Shown piece after piece: positions 8,519 through 60,465 of a stretch of 64,000 nucleotides of DNA. Origin of the DNA: Candidatus Acidulodesulfobacterium ferriphilum (GTDB taxonomy: Bacteria; SZUA-79; Acidulodesulfobacterales; Acidulodesulfobacteraceae); NCBI GenBank assembly GCA_004195035.1, contig SGBD01000001.1:1-64000 (forward strand). Direction: 5' to 3'. Position 1 is the first letter of the stretch. Each line of letters opens with the position of its first letter. The notes below the pieces were generated by a model that did no database searches, was not told the DNA's origin, and saw only the letters and a list, made by a program, of their open reading frames with translations. A program made the translations under genes and the position numbers.

Positions 8519-8690
8519 TTGACCCAAATACAGATTTAGAAAATATTTATAAGTTTTAATGCTAAATAACACTGGATTCCCGCTTTCGCGGGAATGACAC
8601 CTAACGGGTGAAATGATAAATCACTGCATTGTCATTCCCGCAAAAGCGGGAATCCAGAGTATAAAATCCTAAATCTGGATTTGGGATTAA
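8519..8690. repeat. MITE-like palindromic repeat, copy B (full unit)
   Basis: The unit runs from CCCAAATACAGATTTA to TAAATCTGGATTTGGG, imperfect terminal inverted repeats. It encloses two inverted core hairpins (8572-8598 and 8631-8657, CTGGATTCCCGC...GCGGGAATGAC). Flanking pentamers ATTGA and ATTAA resemble a decayed target duplication. It sits in the 5' leader of the porin-glnK-amtB transcript, between the sigma-54 promoter and the first ATG. Confidence 0.8.
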
Positions 8691-8796
8691 TTAACAATTT
8701 TACATTTTTACATTCATTTGAAACAAATTTACCGGCGCCGGTCAAAACCCTGAAAATTTACAATTGGAGGTAAAGCTAAAGGGTTACAATATGATA

Positions 8797-13875: not shown

Positions 13876-14979
13876 TTAATCTATATCTGCCATAAGATAT
13901 ACGGCAAATAATAAAAATATAATATCCGCCATAAACGCGGCTAAAAGCGGATTCAGCTGGGAGGACTCCCCGAGCGACAGGGCAATGGAATTAACAATCC
14001 ACCATGTAAAGGCAAATACGATGCTTATTCCTATCGCAATAGGCGTGCCGCCTTTCTTTTCCAGCAATAATCCAACGGAAATGCCGATAAGTATAAGAAT
14101 CAGGTTTATTACCGGGTAGGATAATTTGGAATAAAAACCGGTAAGAATATAACTGACGCCCGATTCCGTTTTTTTTGCGACCGTAAGCATTTTTGACAGG
14201 CTGGTTATAGAAAGAAATTCCGGTTTCAGGGTGTAAGATTTAAAAAAATTTAAGTTTAAATTAATAGGCATTTCCACATTTTTAAAAAATTTTTCCGAAA
14301 ATTCGGATTTATTTTTAAATTCGAATTTGTCTAACCGCCCGTTAATTAACTCGAGATTATTATGTTTAAAATACCCCTCTTCCGCTATATATCTTTTATT
14401 TAAGACAAAATCGCCATCGAATACGTAAATATTGACGCCCTTAATTACCTTCTTTGACGGATCCAGAGATTTTGCCGTAATAATGTATTTTTTGTAATGA
14501 ATCATAATGTCCTTTGTCCTGTATTTATATACGGAATCTATATCATAGGACGAATTTTTGTTGATATATCTTTGCATTACGAACCTTCTCAGTATATTGG
14601 TCTTAACGGCAATAAAATTCGAAAGAAAAAAAGAAGACATCGATATTATAATTCCGGTCAAAATTAACGGCATAAAGAACTTAAACATACTTAAACCCGA
14701 AGACTTTACAGGCATTATTTCATTGTTTTTATTCAAAAATGTTATGGTAAGCAGGGTCGATAAGAGGGCGGATAACGGAAGCACCCTGTAAATTATTTCC
14801 GGAAGTTTATATAAAAAATATAGAATCACATAACCGGCGTCTGGAGAATGCTTTGTGAATGCGCCTATATTAGAAATAAAATCCACCACGATATAAAAAG
14901 CGGCTAAGCTTAAAAGGGCGACAGCCAAATATTTTAAAAATTCGGCCAATAAATATCTTTGCAATATTTTTATTTTCAT
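13876..14979 (-). CDS. lptG: LPS export permease LptG
   Basis: This 367-residue YjgP/YjgQ family protein has three N-terminal membrane helices, a periplasmic beta-jellyroll middle (about 125-260) and three C-terminal helices (KLSYPVINLILILIGISVGLLLEKKGGTPIAIGISI, given in part). With LptF and the ATPase LptB it extracts LPS from the inner membrane and passes it to LptC. I call it LptG because it is the second gene of the pair. Its ATG and upstream bases were duplicated when a repeat hairpin entered the lptF-lptG junction (14966-15077), leaving the gene intact. Confidence 0.9.
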   Translation of the reverse strand: MKIKILQRYLLAEFLKYLAVALLSLAAFYIVVDFISNIGAFTKHSPDAGYVILYFLYKLPEIIYRVLPLSALLSTLLTITFLNKNNEIMPVKSSGLSMFKFFMPLILTGIIISMSSFFLSNFIAVKTNILRRFVMQRYINKNSSYDIDSVYKYRTKDIMIHYKKYIITAKSLDPSKKVIKGVNIYVFDGDFVLNKRYIAEEGYFKHNNLELINGRLDKFEFKNKSEFSEKFFKNVEMPINLNLNFFKSYTLKPEFLSITSLSKMLTVAKKTESGVSYILTGFYSKLSYPVINLILILIGISVGLLLEKKGGTPIAIGISIVFAFTWWIVNSIALSLGESSQLNPLLAAFMADIIFLLFAVYLMADID

Positions 14980-15077
14980 ATTATTTCATCTCATTATCTT
15001 AAAAGCTGGATTCCCGCCTACGCGGGAATGACAATTTATTTTTATTTTCATATTATTTTATCGCATTATCTTAAAAG
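14966..15077. repeat. Repeat copy D: single hairpin with a duplicated lptF/lptG junction
   Basis: A hairpin (15006-15033, CTGGATTCCCGC...GCGGGAATGACA) lies between two 40-base direct repeats (14966-15005 and 15038-15077) that differ at 2 positions. The left copy contains the lptG start codon and the right copy the lptF stop codon, so the duplicated segment is the original gene junction. Confidence 0.85.
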
Positions 15078-16154
15078 TGTCCTTAAATACAATATAAAGC
15101 CTGAAACAAAAAGAAACAAATCCGCCCCCCAAACGCCTATAACCGGATTTATTTGATTTCTTAGCGACAGATAAAACCCCGATGTGAATAAAATATAATA
15201 AGCCGTCACAATTATTATCGTATAGGAAATTGCCAGAAACAGACTTCTTTTCTCAAGAAACATCCCGAGGGACATGCCGATAAATACAAACAGTATTGTG
15301 GCAAGGGGAATGGCAATCTTTTTGTATAAGTATATGAGATAAATATTCTTTATCTTGCTATCCTTTTCCGATAAATACCTTCTTGCGAGTTGGGGAAATG
15401 TCATAAAATGAACGGAACCGTTTTTACCCGGAAACGACAGCCCTTTTAATTTTATATTTATCTTATATGTGTTAAAATGCAATATCCAAAAATTTTTAGA
15501 ATTCGGGTCTTGATTTTGAATTATGCCGTTTTTTAAATAAAAATACAGGGTATTTTGTTTTTGGTTATAAACGATAGCGCCGCTTTTGGCAATCAGGGTT
15601 TCGGGCGTATTATGCACCCTGTTCAGTATAAAAATACCCTTTAAGGTAGATTTGTTCGTGTTGACATCCCTGACAAAAATTTTTAATTTTCCGAATTTAT
15701 CCGTAAAAGCATTTTTTTTTAATGCCGAAAGCGCCGCTTTTTTAAATTCTTTTACCGCAAGCACCCTGAAAAAAAAGTTAAATCTCGGAGCCATATAAAA
15801 AGAAAATAAAATTGAAACTGCAAGCGGTATCAAGGCAAAAAGAAGGACCGGCTTCGTCAGTTTAAAAATCGAGACGCCGGAAACCTTTAATGCCATAATT
15901 TCGTTATCCTGCGTCATTTTCCCGAAAACCGTCAATACCGCAAGCAAAAAAGATACCGGAAGGGTTATTATCATGAAATCGGGTATCGTTAAACTGGCAA
16001 GCTTTAGTACGGCGGTTATGCTGACCCCCTTATTAAGCACCATCTGGGTAAGCAATAAAATCCGGTTTATCGTAATACTGAAGGTAAATATTAAAAGTCC
16101 GAATATAAAAGGAGGGATAAATTGTTTAAATATGTATCTGTCTATTGTTGACAT
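15066..16154 (-). CDS. lptF: LPS export permease LptF
   Basis: The 362-residue protein of the YjgP/YjgQ family has the same six-helix plan as its neighbour. The opening IDRYIFKQFIPPFIFGLL and the cytoplasmic coupling segment KMTQDNEIMALKVSGVSIFKL are typical. The last helices end near FVSGFILYLRTLLR. It forms the LptB2FG transporter together with LptG. The pair lies far from lptCAB (26-28 kb) but in the same window. It faces the divergent receiver-protein gene across a 224-base AT-rich promoter region. Confidence 0.9.
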   Translation of the reverse strand: MSTIDRYIFKQFIPPFIFGLLIFTFSITINRILLLTQMVLNKGVSITAVLKLASLTIPDFMIITLPVSFLLAVLTVFGKMTQDNEIMALKVSGVSIFKLTKPVLLFALIPLAVSILFSFYMAPRFNFFFRVLAVKEFKKAALSALKKNAFTDKFGKLKIFVRDVNTNKSTLKGIFILNRVHNTPETLIAKSGAIVYNQKQNTLYFYLKNGIIQNQDPNSKNFWILHFNTYKINIKLKGLSFPGKNGSVHFMTFPQLARRYLSEKDSKIKNIYLIYLYKKIAIPLATILFVFIGMSLGMFLEKRSLFLAISYTIIIVTAYYILFTSGFYLSLRNQINPVIGVWGADLFLFVSGFILYLRTLLR

Positions 16155-34132: not shown

Positions 34133-35383
34133 TCACCATTCAGGTATAAATTCCCCTGCAATTAAATCGTCGTATGTTTCCCTTTTTCTTATAATGCAAT
34201 ATTTATCTTTATCTACCAGAATCTCGGGTACTCTGGGTCTTGAATTATAATTGGAAGACATCGAAAATCCGTAAGCGCCCGCGCTGTACACCGCAAGCAA
34301 ATCTCCTTCCTGAACATGGCTTAGAAGCCTGTCTTTGCCGAGAAAATCGGCAGACTCGCAAATAGGACCGACTACATCGGCTCTTATCCTTGCCCCGCTT
34401 CTTTTAACTACAGGAACAATCTCGTGATATGCCTCATACAATGCGGGTCTTATCAAATCATTCATGCCGCCATCAACTATAACAAAATTTTTACTGCCCG
34501 TGTCTTTATTATATATAACTTTTGTAACAAATATGCCGCTATTTCCCGCAACCACTCTTCCTGGCTCAAATATAACCTTTCCTTTATAATCTCCCAAAAT
34601 ATTTTTTATGGAATTCATATAGGTAGAAGGATGCGGGGGCATTTCATTTTCATATGTAATGCCGAGTCCGCCGCCTAAATCTAAATATTTTATGTCAAAG
34701 CCGATTGCGGTAAGCTGTAAAAGTAAATTCTTAATTATTAGCACGGCGTCATTAAACGGGGAAATTTCCGTTAATTGCGACCCGATATGACAATCAAGTC
34801 CGACCACATCCACATTTTTTAATTCTTTAGATTGTTCATAGATGGAAACGGCATGTTTTATGCTTATTCCAAACTTATTTTTTTTAAGCCCCGTAGAAAT
34901 ATAGGGATGGGTTTTTGGATCGACATTAGGATTAATTCTAAAAGAAATCCGCGCTTTTTTGCCCAAATCCCCCGCAATTTTATCTATCAAAAATAATTCG
35001 GGCAAGGATTCGACATTAAACATTAATATATCCGACTTAAGAGCAAATTCAATCTCGCTTTCCGTTTTACCGACGCCCGAATATACCACTTTTTGTTTAT
35101 CGACCCCTGCTTGAATTGCCCTGAAAAGCTCTCCACCAGAAACAATATCCGCTCCCCAACCCATTTTAAATAAAAAATTAAGAATAGCAATGTTCGAATT
35201 TGCCTTTACGCTATAACAAACAATAGAATTTAATACTTTTGAACTTTCGTCAAAGGCGCTTATGTGCCTTTTTAATGTTGCAAGCGAATATAAATAAAAA
35301 GGGGTCCCGACCTCGGCCGAAATATGCTTGACGGGAACATCTTCGCAGTATAATTCGTTTTCTTTAAAGATAAAATCGTTCAT
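34133..35383 (-). CDS. lysA: Diaminopimelate decarboxylase
   Basis: This 416-residue fold-III PLP enzyme makes lysine from meso-DAP. The PLP Lys is in IVCYSVKANSN, and other landmarks are GADIVSGGELFRA, HIGSQLTEI, YLDLGGGLGITY, FEPGRVVAGNSG and GPICESADFLGKDR with YSAGAYGFSM. The length is normal. Its ATG and ribosome-binding site (AAAGGAAAT) belong to a segment that occurs three times upstream because of repeat insertion, and the copy at 35381-35400 is the one used. Confidence 0.96.
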   Translation of the reverse strand: MNDFIFKENELYCEDVPVKHISAEVGTPFYLYSLATLKRHISAFDESSKVLNSIVCYSVKANSNIAILNFLFKMGWGADIVSGGELFRAIQAGVDKQKVVYSGVGKTESEIEFALKSDILMFNVESLPELFLIDKIAGDLGKKARISFRINPNVDPKTHPYISTGLKKNKFGISIKHAVSIYEQSKELKNVDVVGLDCHIGSQLTEISPFNDAVLIIKNLLLQLTAIGFDIKYLDLGGGLGITYENEMPPHPSTYMNSIKNILGDYKGKVIFEPGRVVAGNSGIFVTKVIYNKDTGSKNFVIVDGGMNDLIRPALYEAYHEIVPVVKRSGARIRADVVGPICESADFLGKDRLLSHVQEGDLLAVYSAGAYGFSMSSNYNSRPRVPEILVDKDKYCIIRKRETYDDLIAGEFIPEW

Positions 35384-35524
35384 AAGTTATAATTTCCTTT
35401 CTATTCTTTATCTGGATTCCCGCCTGCGCGGGAATGACACATAAGTTATAATTTCCTTTCTATTCTTTATCTGGATTCCCGCCTGCGCGGGAATGACACA
35501 TAAGTTATAATTTCCTTTCTATTA
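35381..35524. repeat. Repeat copies G1/G2: triplicated ispB/lysA junction with two hairpins
   Basis: Two identical 59-base units (35381-35439 and 35440-35498) each consist of a junction segment (CATAAGTTATAATTTCC...) and a hairpin (CTGGATTCCCGC...GCGGGAATGACA). A third junction segment follows at 35499-35523. Each junction copy carries the lysA start codon and ribosome-binding site and the end of the polyprenyl synthase gene. Only the outermost copies are used. Confidence 0.92.
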
Positions 35525-36473
35525 TGTAATTTGCTATATCCGTTAAATTTCTTTTGTGTTCCGAATCTGGAAAAACATTTAAATTTTCTTTTGCTTTCAA
35601 AACGGCCGCCTTTGCTTTTGATATAGTGTAATCTATCGAGTCATAGCTTTTTACAAGTTTTAAAACAGCTTGAAGGTCTGCGTTCGTAAGTTTTTTCTTA
35701 TAAATAATTTCGGAAACGATATCTTTCTCGCTATTAAGGCATCTTTCCATGGTATGGATGAGCGGAAGGGTGAGCTTGCCCTCCTTTAAATCATTGCCTA
35801 TAAACTTGCCGAATTCTTCGTTTGAAGTATAATCAAGGGCATCGTCCATAAGCTGGAACGCAATGCCGATGTTTAAACCGTAATCGTAAAGATTTTGACC
35901 GTATTCATCGGTTTTCAGGGAAATTATTGCGCCTATTTGCGATGCGCAGGCAAAAAGCACGGCTGTTTTCTTTATAATTATATCGAGATAATCATCCTCC
36001 GTCGTTTTAATATCGGCGGTTTTAACAAGCTCTTTCACTTCGCCCTCGGCCATAAGCGTAACGGCAATAGAATAAGCCTTTATAACATCCATATTATCTA
36101 AGCTTGAAAGTACCTTAAAAGACTTTGCGAATAAATAATCGCCTACAAGCACCGAAGCTTCATTTCCAAAAACCGTATTTGCGGATGACTTTCCCCGTCT
36201 TAACGGGGCGTTATCGACAACATCGTCGTGAAGAAGCGTAGCCGTATGGATAAATTCGATAACTGCGGCTAAAGGAATATGGTCATCGCCTTTATATCCG
36301 CAAATTTTTGAAGATACAAGGAGGAGTATAGGGCGTATCCTCTTTCCGCCGCTTGAAATCACATATTTTGCAACCCTTTGAATCAGCGGCGTTTCGGTAG
36401 CAAGATGAGTTTCGAACTGGCTTTCGACCATTTTTAGTTCATCTTCTATATAATCAAAGGAAATATTCTGCAA
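35505..36473 (-). CDS. ispB: Polyprenyl diphosphate synthase
   Basis: The 322-residue trans-isoprenyl diphosphate synthase has the first Asp-rich motif in HDDVVDNAPLRRGKSSAN, the second in FQLMDDALDYTS, and GGKRIRPILLL. Such enzymes make C40-C50 side chains for quinones, or related prenyl chains. Chain length cannot be judged reliably from sequence by eye, so the ispB name is by analogy. Its last 6 codons lie in the junction segment triplicated by the repeat. Confidence 0.88.
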   Translation of the reverse strand: MQNISFDYIEDELKMVESQFETHLATETPLIQRVAKYVISSGGKRIRPILLLVSSKICGYKGDDHIPLAAVIEFIHTATLLHDDVVDNAPLRRGKSSANTVFGNEASVLVGDYLFAKSFKVLSSLDNMDVIKAYSIAVTLMAEGEVKELVKTADIKTTEDDYLDIIIKKTAVLFACASQIGAIISLKTDEYGQNLYDYGLNIGIAFQLMDDALDYTSNEEFGKFIGNDLKEGKLTLPLIHTMERCLNSEKDIVSEIIYKKKLTNADLQAVLKLVKSYDSIDYTISKAKAAVLKAKENLNVFPDSEHKRNLTDIANYIIERKL

Positions 36474-42784: not shown

Positions 42785-42994
42785 ATACTGCATTATAAAT
42801 TTATTTTCTGGATTCCCGCCTACGCGGGAATGACTATATGGGGATTGAGGTTTTAACCCAAAGGGTGTCATTACCGCGAAAGCGGTAATCCAGTTTAAAG
42901 TTAAATTACCATATTGTCATTACCGCGAAAGCGGTAATCCAGTTTAAAGTTAAATTACCATATTGTCATTACCGCGAAAGCGGTAATCCAGTTT
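42785..42994. repeat. Repeat copy H: one hairpin plus a 49-bp tandem array
   Basis: A first hairpin (CTGGATTCCCGCCTACGCG..., about 42810-42837) is followed by GTCATTACCGCG...CGGTAATCCAG units starting at 42867, 42916 and 42965, an exact 49-base period. Each unit is a 27-base hairpin and a 22-base spacer. The hairpin sequence is ATTACC instead of ATTCCC, with matching change on the other arm. It fills the argG-argH gap. Confidence 0.88.
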
Positions 42995-60301: not shown

Positions 60302-60465
60302 CCTTAATCCTGCAATAGAATTTTATTTTCTGGATTCCCGCTTTCGCGGGAATGACAATAAGGGAATTTAAACTTTAACCCGGCGGGTGTCATTCCCGCG
60401 AAAGCGGGAATCCAGAATTTACGTAAGATAGAAACATTTAAATATTTTCTATTGCAGGATTAAGG
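60302..60465. mobile_element. MITE-like palindromic element, copy K, with 5-bp target duplication
   Basis: The 164-bp unit has perfect 19-base terminal inverted repeats (CCTTAATCCTGCAATAGAA at 60302-60320, complement at 60447-60465), two inverted core hairpins, and TTACT direct repeats at 60297-60301 and 60466-60470. The right duplicate contains the stop codon of the 74-residue gene. The arms differ from copies B, F and J, yet match each other exactly. Confidence 0.88.

Follow-up and report, generated by a model that had tools for sequence, protein, structure and literature searches.

CGTC-1-type REP hairpins flanked by long target duplications at the polyprenyl synthase/lysA junction of Candidatus Acidulodesulfobacterium ferriphilum and at three further loci

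REPs of the CGTC-1 type, among which are Neisseria dRS3 and Rickettsia RPE-6, are described in their defining paper by a CGTC, TGTC or CCTC tag, an 8-bp stem starting with AT, a 4-nt loop and a CCA tail, and as occurring mostly in head-to-head dimers, without a dedicated transposase (Di Nocera et al. 2013, PMC3733652). The same paper presents the multiplication of CGTC REPs as an open question. RAYT/IS200-type systems are described as mobilising REP hairpins as short elements (PMC2817692, PMC8266576), and members of the IS200/IS605 family as making no larger target site duplications (PMC2817692). Insertions that have no counterpart in a close relative, together with the corresponding empty sites and long target duplications, provide a footprint against which candidate mechanisms can be judged.

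Here we describe such a footprint at the junction of a polyprenyl synthase gene and lysA in Candidatus Acidulodesulfobacterium ferriphilum. The window referred to throughout is the whole stretch of DNA that was analysed, 64,000 nt of contig SGBD01000001.1. New here is the recurrence of the same scar at three more loci. The finding is real and goes beyond a curiosity, but its carrier belongs to a repeat class already known.

The array at the synthase/lysA junction

In the assembled sequence, window positions 35381-35523 have the form J-H-J-H-J, where J is the synthase/lysA junction and H is a hairpin insert. This is the arrangement of two identical 59-base units plus a partial third copy that the earlier note had reported, with an end one base short of the 35524 given there; TRF finds a tandem period of 59, 2.4 copies and a 100% match. 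J is 25 nt long and occurs in three identical copies. It takes in the end of the synthase coding sequence with its TAA stop, an AGGAAA ribosome-binding-like stretch that lies within these final codons, and the ATG of lysA. All three copies are on the minus strand: the one at 35499-35523 adjoins the synthase and holds its final codons and stop, the middle copy starts at 35440 and ends at 35464, and the copy at 35381-35405 adjoins lysA and holds the ATG in use along with its ribosome-binding-like stretch. The 34-nt H is found in the window only as the two identical copies at 35406-35439 and 35465-35498, also on the minus strand.

Since the entire overlapping junction is contained in J, both genes remained whole, as had been claimed. 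The polyprenyl synthase (ispB-like, 322 aa, 35505-36473, minus strand, PF00348) and the lysA-like PLP-dependent decarboxylase (416 aa, 34133-35383, minus strand, PF02784/PF00278) each have an open reading frame and Pfam matches. The description of the insertion as being without damage holds for these reading frames; the array also adds two identical 13-codon mini-ORFs between them, translating as MCHSRAGGNPDKE and a stop, each of which, on the minus strand, opens at a duplicated ATG and closes at a TAG supplied by the following J copy (35460-35501 and 35401-35442, coordinates read off the sequence). Translation from each extra ATG might act as a relay of 13 codons leading to lysA.

H reads TGTC-ATTCCCGC-GCAG-GCGGGAAT-CCAG followed by an ATAAAG tail, and the folding energy of each hairpin is about -15 kcal/mol (z -3.9). 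Its core, GTCATTCCCGC-N4-GCGGGAATCCAG, matches the CGTC-1 definition. The TGTC tag, one of the three accepted forms (CGTC, TGTC or CCTC), precedes the stem here and at the second locus described below; ATTCCCGC-GCAG-GCGGGAAT makes an 8-bp stem starting A-T with a 4-nt loop; and CCAG supplies the CCA tail in H and in most listed copies. The dimer habit is also present, with 51 head-to-head pairs spaced 57-58 nt apart against 22 others in the sequence stretches examined. The source genome (G000) contains 91 exact-core and 158 looser-pattern copies, with 0 for the reversed-pattern controls. Given that the looser pattern yields only 15 copies in one relative, G002, and none in another, G001, the CGTC-1 REPs have probably expanded recently in G000.

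Three other readings of the hairpin were rejected. A chance origin is contradicted by the 16 occurrences of the REP pattern in the window, where shuffles gave an expectation of 0.00, and by the random-position test below. The hairpins have no T run and no terminator was found at the array, which argues against an intrinsic terminator, and the only Rfam match in the window is a tRNA.

Relatives with a single, hairpin-free junction, as envisaged in the earlier note, do exist. Both G002, the closest relative of G000 by lysA (95%), and G001 have a single J at this position, and the hairpin is absent from all other family genomes shown in the junction comparison. When the flanks of the array are aligned to G002 they overlap by exactly the 25-nt J, which bears out the proposal that the junction was duplicated along with the hairpin. 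Such a single-copy empty site in a relative is what a transposon-type insertion with target duplication would leave. At all 12 hairpin loci compared with a syntenic G002 contig, the hairpin was missing from G002. Exact-pattern head-to-tail REP arrays occurred in just one of the 30 phylum genomes examined, the source's own, so that no second J-H-J-H-J was found among these relatives.

The same scar at other loci

Three further loci in the same bacterial family carry one REP fragment of 31 to about 38 nt between duplicated flanks of about 30-41 bp; for every one of them a relative has the site in single copy. The second locus lies in the window, on the minus strand, between two LptF/LptG-type genes. 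One 41-nt J copy (14965-15005) contains the start, ATG plus four codons, of the downstream gene (13876-14979); the 31-nt REP insert follows at 15006-15036; and the other 41-nt copy (15037-15077) contains the final codons of the upstream gene (15066-16154), its stop included. The two copies are identical at 39 of 41 positions, and positions 15838-15878 of G002 (41 bp) align to either side of the hairpin. The G002 site is itself not clean (G002:C9 near 15850-15870), in that an 11-nt REP half (GTCATTCCCGC) lies inside J, perhaps the remnant of another REP.

The third locus, on contig C4 of G000, carries a 37-nt insert and a 32-nt duplication, together 69 nt, in frame within a gltX-like gene (PF00749). 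Both flanks align to G002, where they overlap by 30 bp, and by reading the J copies agree at 30 of 32 positions. The fourth locus, on contig C7 of G009, has a REP at a gene end with flanks sharing at least 31 nt, and when its two sides are aligned to G011 they overlap by 43 bp. Duplication lengths across the four loci are therefore 25, 41, 32 and at least 31 nt. The tails of H mostly resemble the arms of an element of ~165-185 bp, the third locus showing this on both sides and the others only in part. Target duplication explains why overlapping gene junctions, and genes too, can take in a hairpin and lose nothing. At every one of the four loci J overlaps coding sequence, which may reflect selection keeping harmless cases only. 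As a separate observation, a REP followed by similar sequence is found both in G002 (C12 near 27261) and at G000:C1:648463; by reading, the former may be in frame just past an ATG, in a signal-peptide-like start.

Flanking repeats at the scar loci exceed every shuffle. In the random-position test, flanking repeats with a score of 50 or more occurred at 20 of 20,000 positions in 144 kb, all of them at three REP loci (15000, 35412-35467 and 42896-42936). We also surveyed 237 distinct REPs, drawn from G000 near exact-core copies and from chosen stretches of G002, G003, G009, G011, G024 and G027. A head-to-head partner was present for 175 and absent for 62; of the latter, a rough filter assigned an element arm to 22 and classed 40 as bare, though some of these 40 do carry arms. 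The scar was found in 5 REPs at 4 loci among those 40, the remaining 35 being without it, and the partnered REPs showed one strong flanking repeat, the array at 42866 described below. Two marginal cases were left out of the count, the partnered L030 (score 21, shuffle maximum 17) and G000:C1:550564 (score 26, shuffle maximum 22). In at least 150 IMG/VR loci (at least 229 REPs, at least 164 of them without a REP neighbour), none of 26 flagged cases was a clean single J-H-J when judged by eye. Taken with the 4 loci among the bare REPs, this means that the route is a minor one, or that its scars fade. Head-to-tail REP arrays of the exact pattern were seen in at least 24 IMG/VR stretches; by reading, one of them (L265) resembles J-H-J-H, and several look like the repeat arrays of Neisseria.

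REP pairs present a different picture. They sit in MITE-like units of ~165-185 bp with several arm variants and short target duplications, and the unit ends include GATTTGGG, CAATTTTGGG and GGATTAAGG. Pair inserts of about 164-186 bp, compared with G002, gave overlaps of 2, 5 and about 9 bp (8521-8705, 60302-60465 and G000:C1:107004-107189), scored only where the G002 alignment was clean, since G002 has unmatched sequence at the other pair inserts compared. The window also holds a tandem array of another kind at 42866-42994 on the plus strand, attached to a REP pair and absent from G002. It has a period of 49 and consists of three REPs and two 21-nt spacers in 100% identical repeats, with a REP variant whose stem is compensated (ATTACCGC/GCGGTAAT), and is followed by a GGGGACAG...CTGTCCCC palindrome. 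In G009:C7 (L153, 280-520), the spacer part of a REP pair occurs in tandem copies and the REPs have decayed.

Possible origins of the array

At these loci a REP-centred fragment was inserted with a duplication of 25 to about 41 bp. Mobilisation by Y1/RAYT was rejected, PF01797 having no match in a genome that is 97% complete (controls were positive in 5 of 14), and so was Ku-type end joining, as Ku was not found. Neither the fixed duplication length nor the known enzyme of a transposon is seen: the lengths vary, and there is no candidate among Y1 and Ku. With neither found, we infer that a hairpin fragment was captured at a staggered break, and we consider it fairly likely that such capture with target duplication, followed by unequal exchange, made J-H-J-H-J. 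Staggered nicks 25-41 bp apart would cut the target, a nuclease-resistant REP hairpin fragment would be captured at the break, and fill-in would leave J on each side, so that a 34-nt REP fragment and 25 bp of duplicated target would yield J-H-J. Through unequal exchange between these J copies the H+J unit would then be doubled. Against capture stand the small share of bare REPs that bear the scar, which shows that it is not the rule, the finding of no clean single J-H-J among the flagged IMG/VR cases, and the fact that replicative template switching would give the same product.

Template switching during replication is the strongest competitor, although we regard it as a good deal less probable than capture. 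A polymerase would leave the target, copy a REP elsewhere, return 25-41 nt upstream and copy J again, with no staggered cut. The variable length of J, the lack of fixed REP ends, the donor-like tails and the failure to find either Y1 or Ku all agree with such a switch, but it leaves unexplained the restriction to REP-centred fragments of ~31-38 nt. Any microhomology at the switch points is not scorable because J would absorb it.

The earlier note held that each hairpin insertion had copied the junction. Copying together with the hairpin stands, whereas a separate insertion for each unit appears improbable. Two insertions at the same base, each copying the same 25 bp, would account for complete 59-nt units with a full J in each; they would also need the same site, the same loop variant and the same ATAAAG tail twice, where unequal exchange does it in one step. 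Tandem slippage or unequal exchange accounts for two identical units and fits the two 59-nt units here, but cannot by itself turn a single J into J-H-J. Because exchange between identical J copies can double a unit and the 59-nt units are identical, the second unit is more simply explained in this way than by a second insertion, and the array is probably a record of one insertion and one unit duplication.

That the array is an assembly artefact, with a true unit number other than two, is very unlikely: a short tandem repeat 143 bp long invites the suspicion, but the single J-H-J at three other loci would go unexplained, and at two of these the J copies have diverged (39/41 and 30/32). Least credible of all is off-target integration by Cas1-Cas2 with J as repeat and H as spacer, suggested by the repeat-spacer geometry and by a G000 Cas1 gene that adjoins a CRISPR array, since CRISPR repeats there are 36 nt and spacers 30 nt while J is 25, 41 or 32 nt and H 34, 31 or 37 nt, and the inserts are always REPs. 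This reading as a CRISPR start-up array was rejected, the 36-nt host repeat also being of another sequence. The CRISPR array itself lies at G000:C1 near 568620, beside Cas1 and a large frame that, by reading, is Cas9-like; the array sizes were also obtained by reading.

Returning to fragment capture, we put forward only tentatively the wider idea that CGTC-type REPs may spread singly and independently of a transposase, as nuclease-resistant hairpin fragments of ~31-38 nt captured at staggered breaks, with long and variable duplications (25 to about 41 bp) as the footprint. If the capture route is true, the long duplications allow REPs to establish themselves at gene junctions and even inside genes, with the reading frame kept.

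Comparison with known systems

The hairpins described here share their tag, stem, loop, tail and dimer habit with the CGTC-1 REPs as described in PMC3733652. The long target duplication around single REPs is a feature of the present loci, and the terms "target site" and "duplicat" are absent from the main text of that paper. In the parts of the literature searched for one, no prior report of long duplications at REPs was found. RAYT/IS200-type systems likewise involve REP hairpins as short mobile elements; the loci here differ on both counts by which such systems, as described, would be recognised, having duplications of 25-41 bp and a genome in which no Y1 transposase was found.

The intragenic palindromic elements of Rickettsia, the RPEs, insert in frame. 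They resemble the third locus, where a REP-derived insert lies in frame in a housekeeping gene, the gltX-like gene, and differ from it in that the insert here has 32 bp of the host gene duplicated around it.
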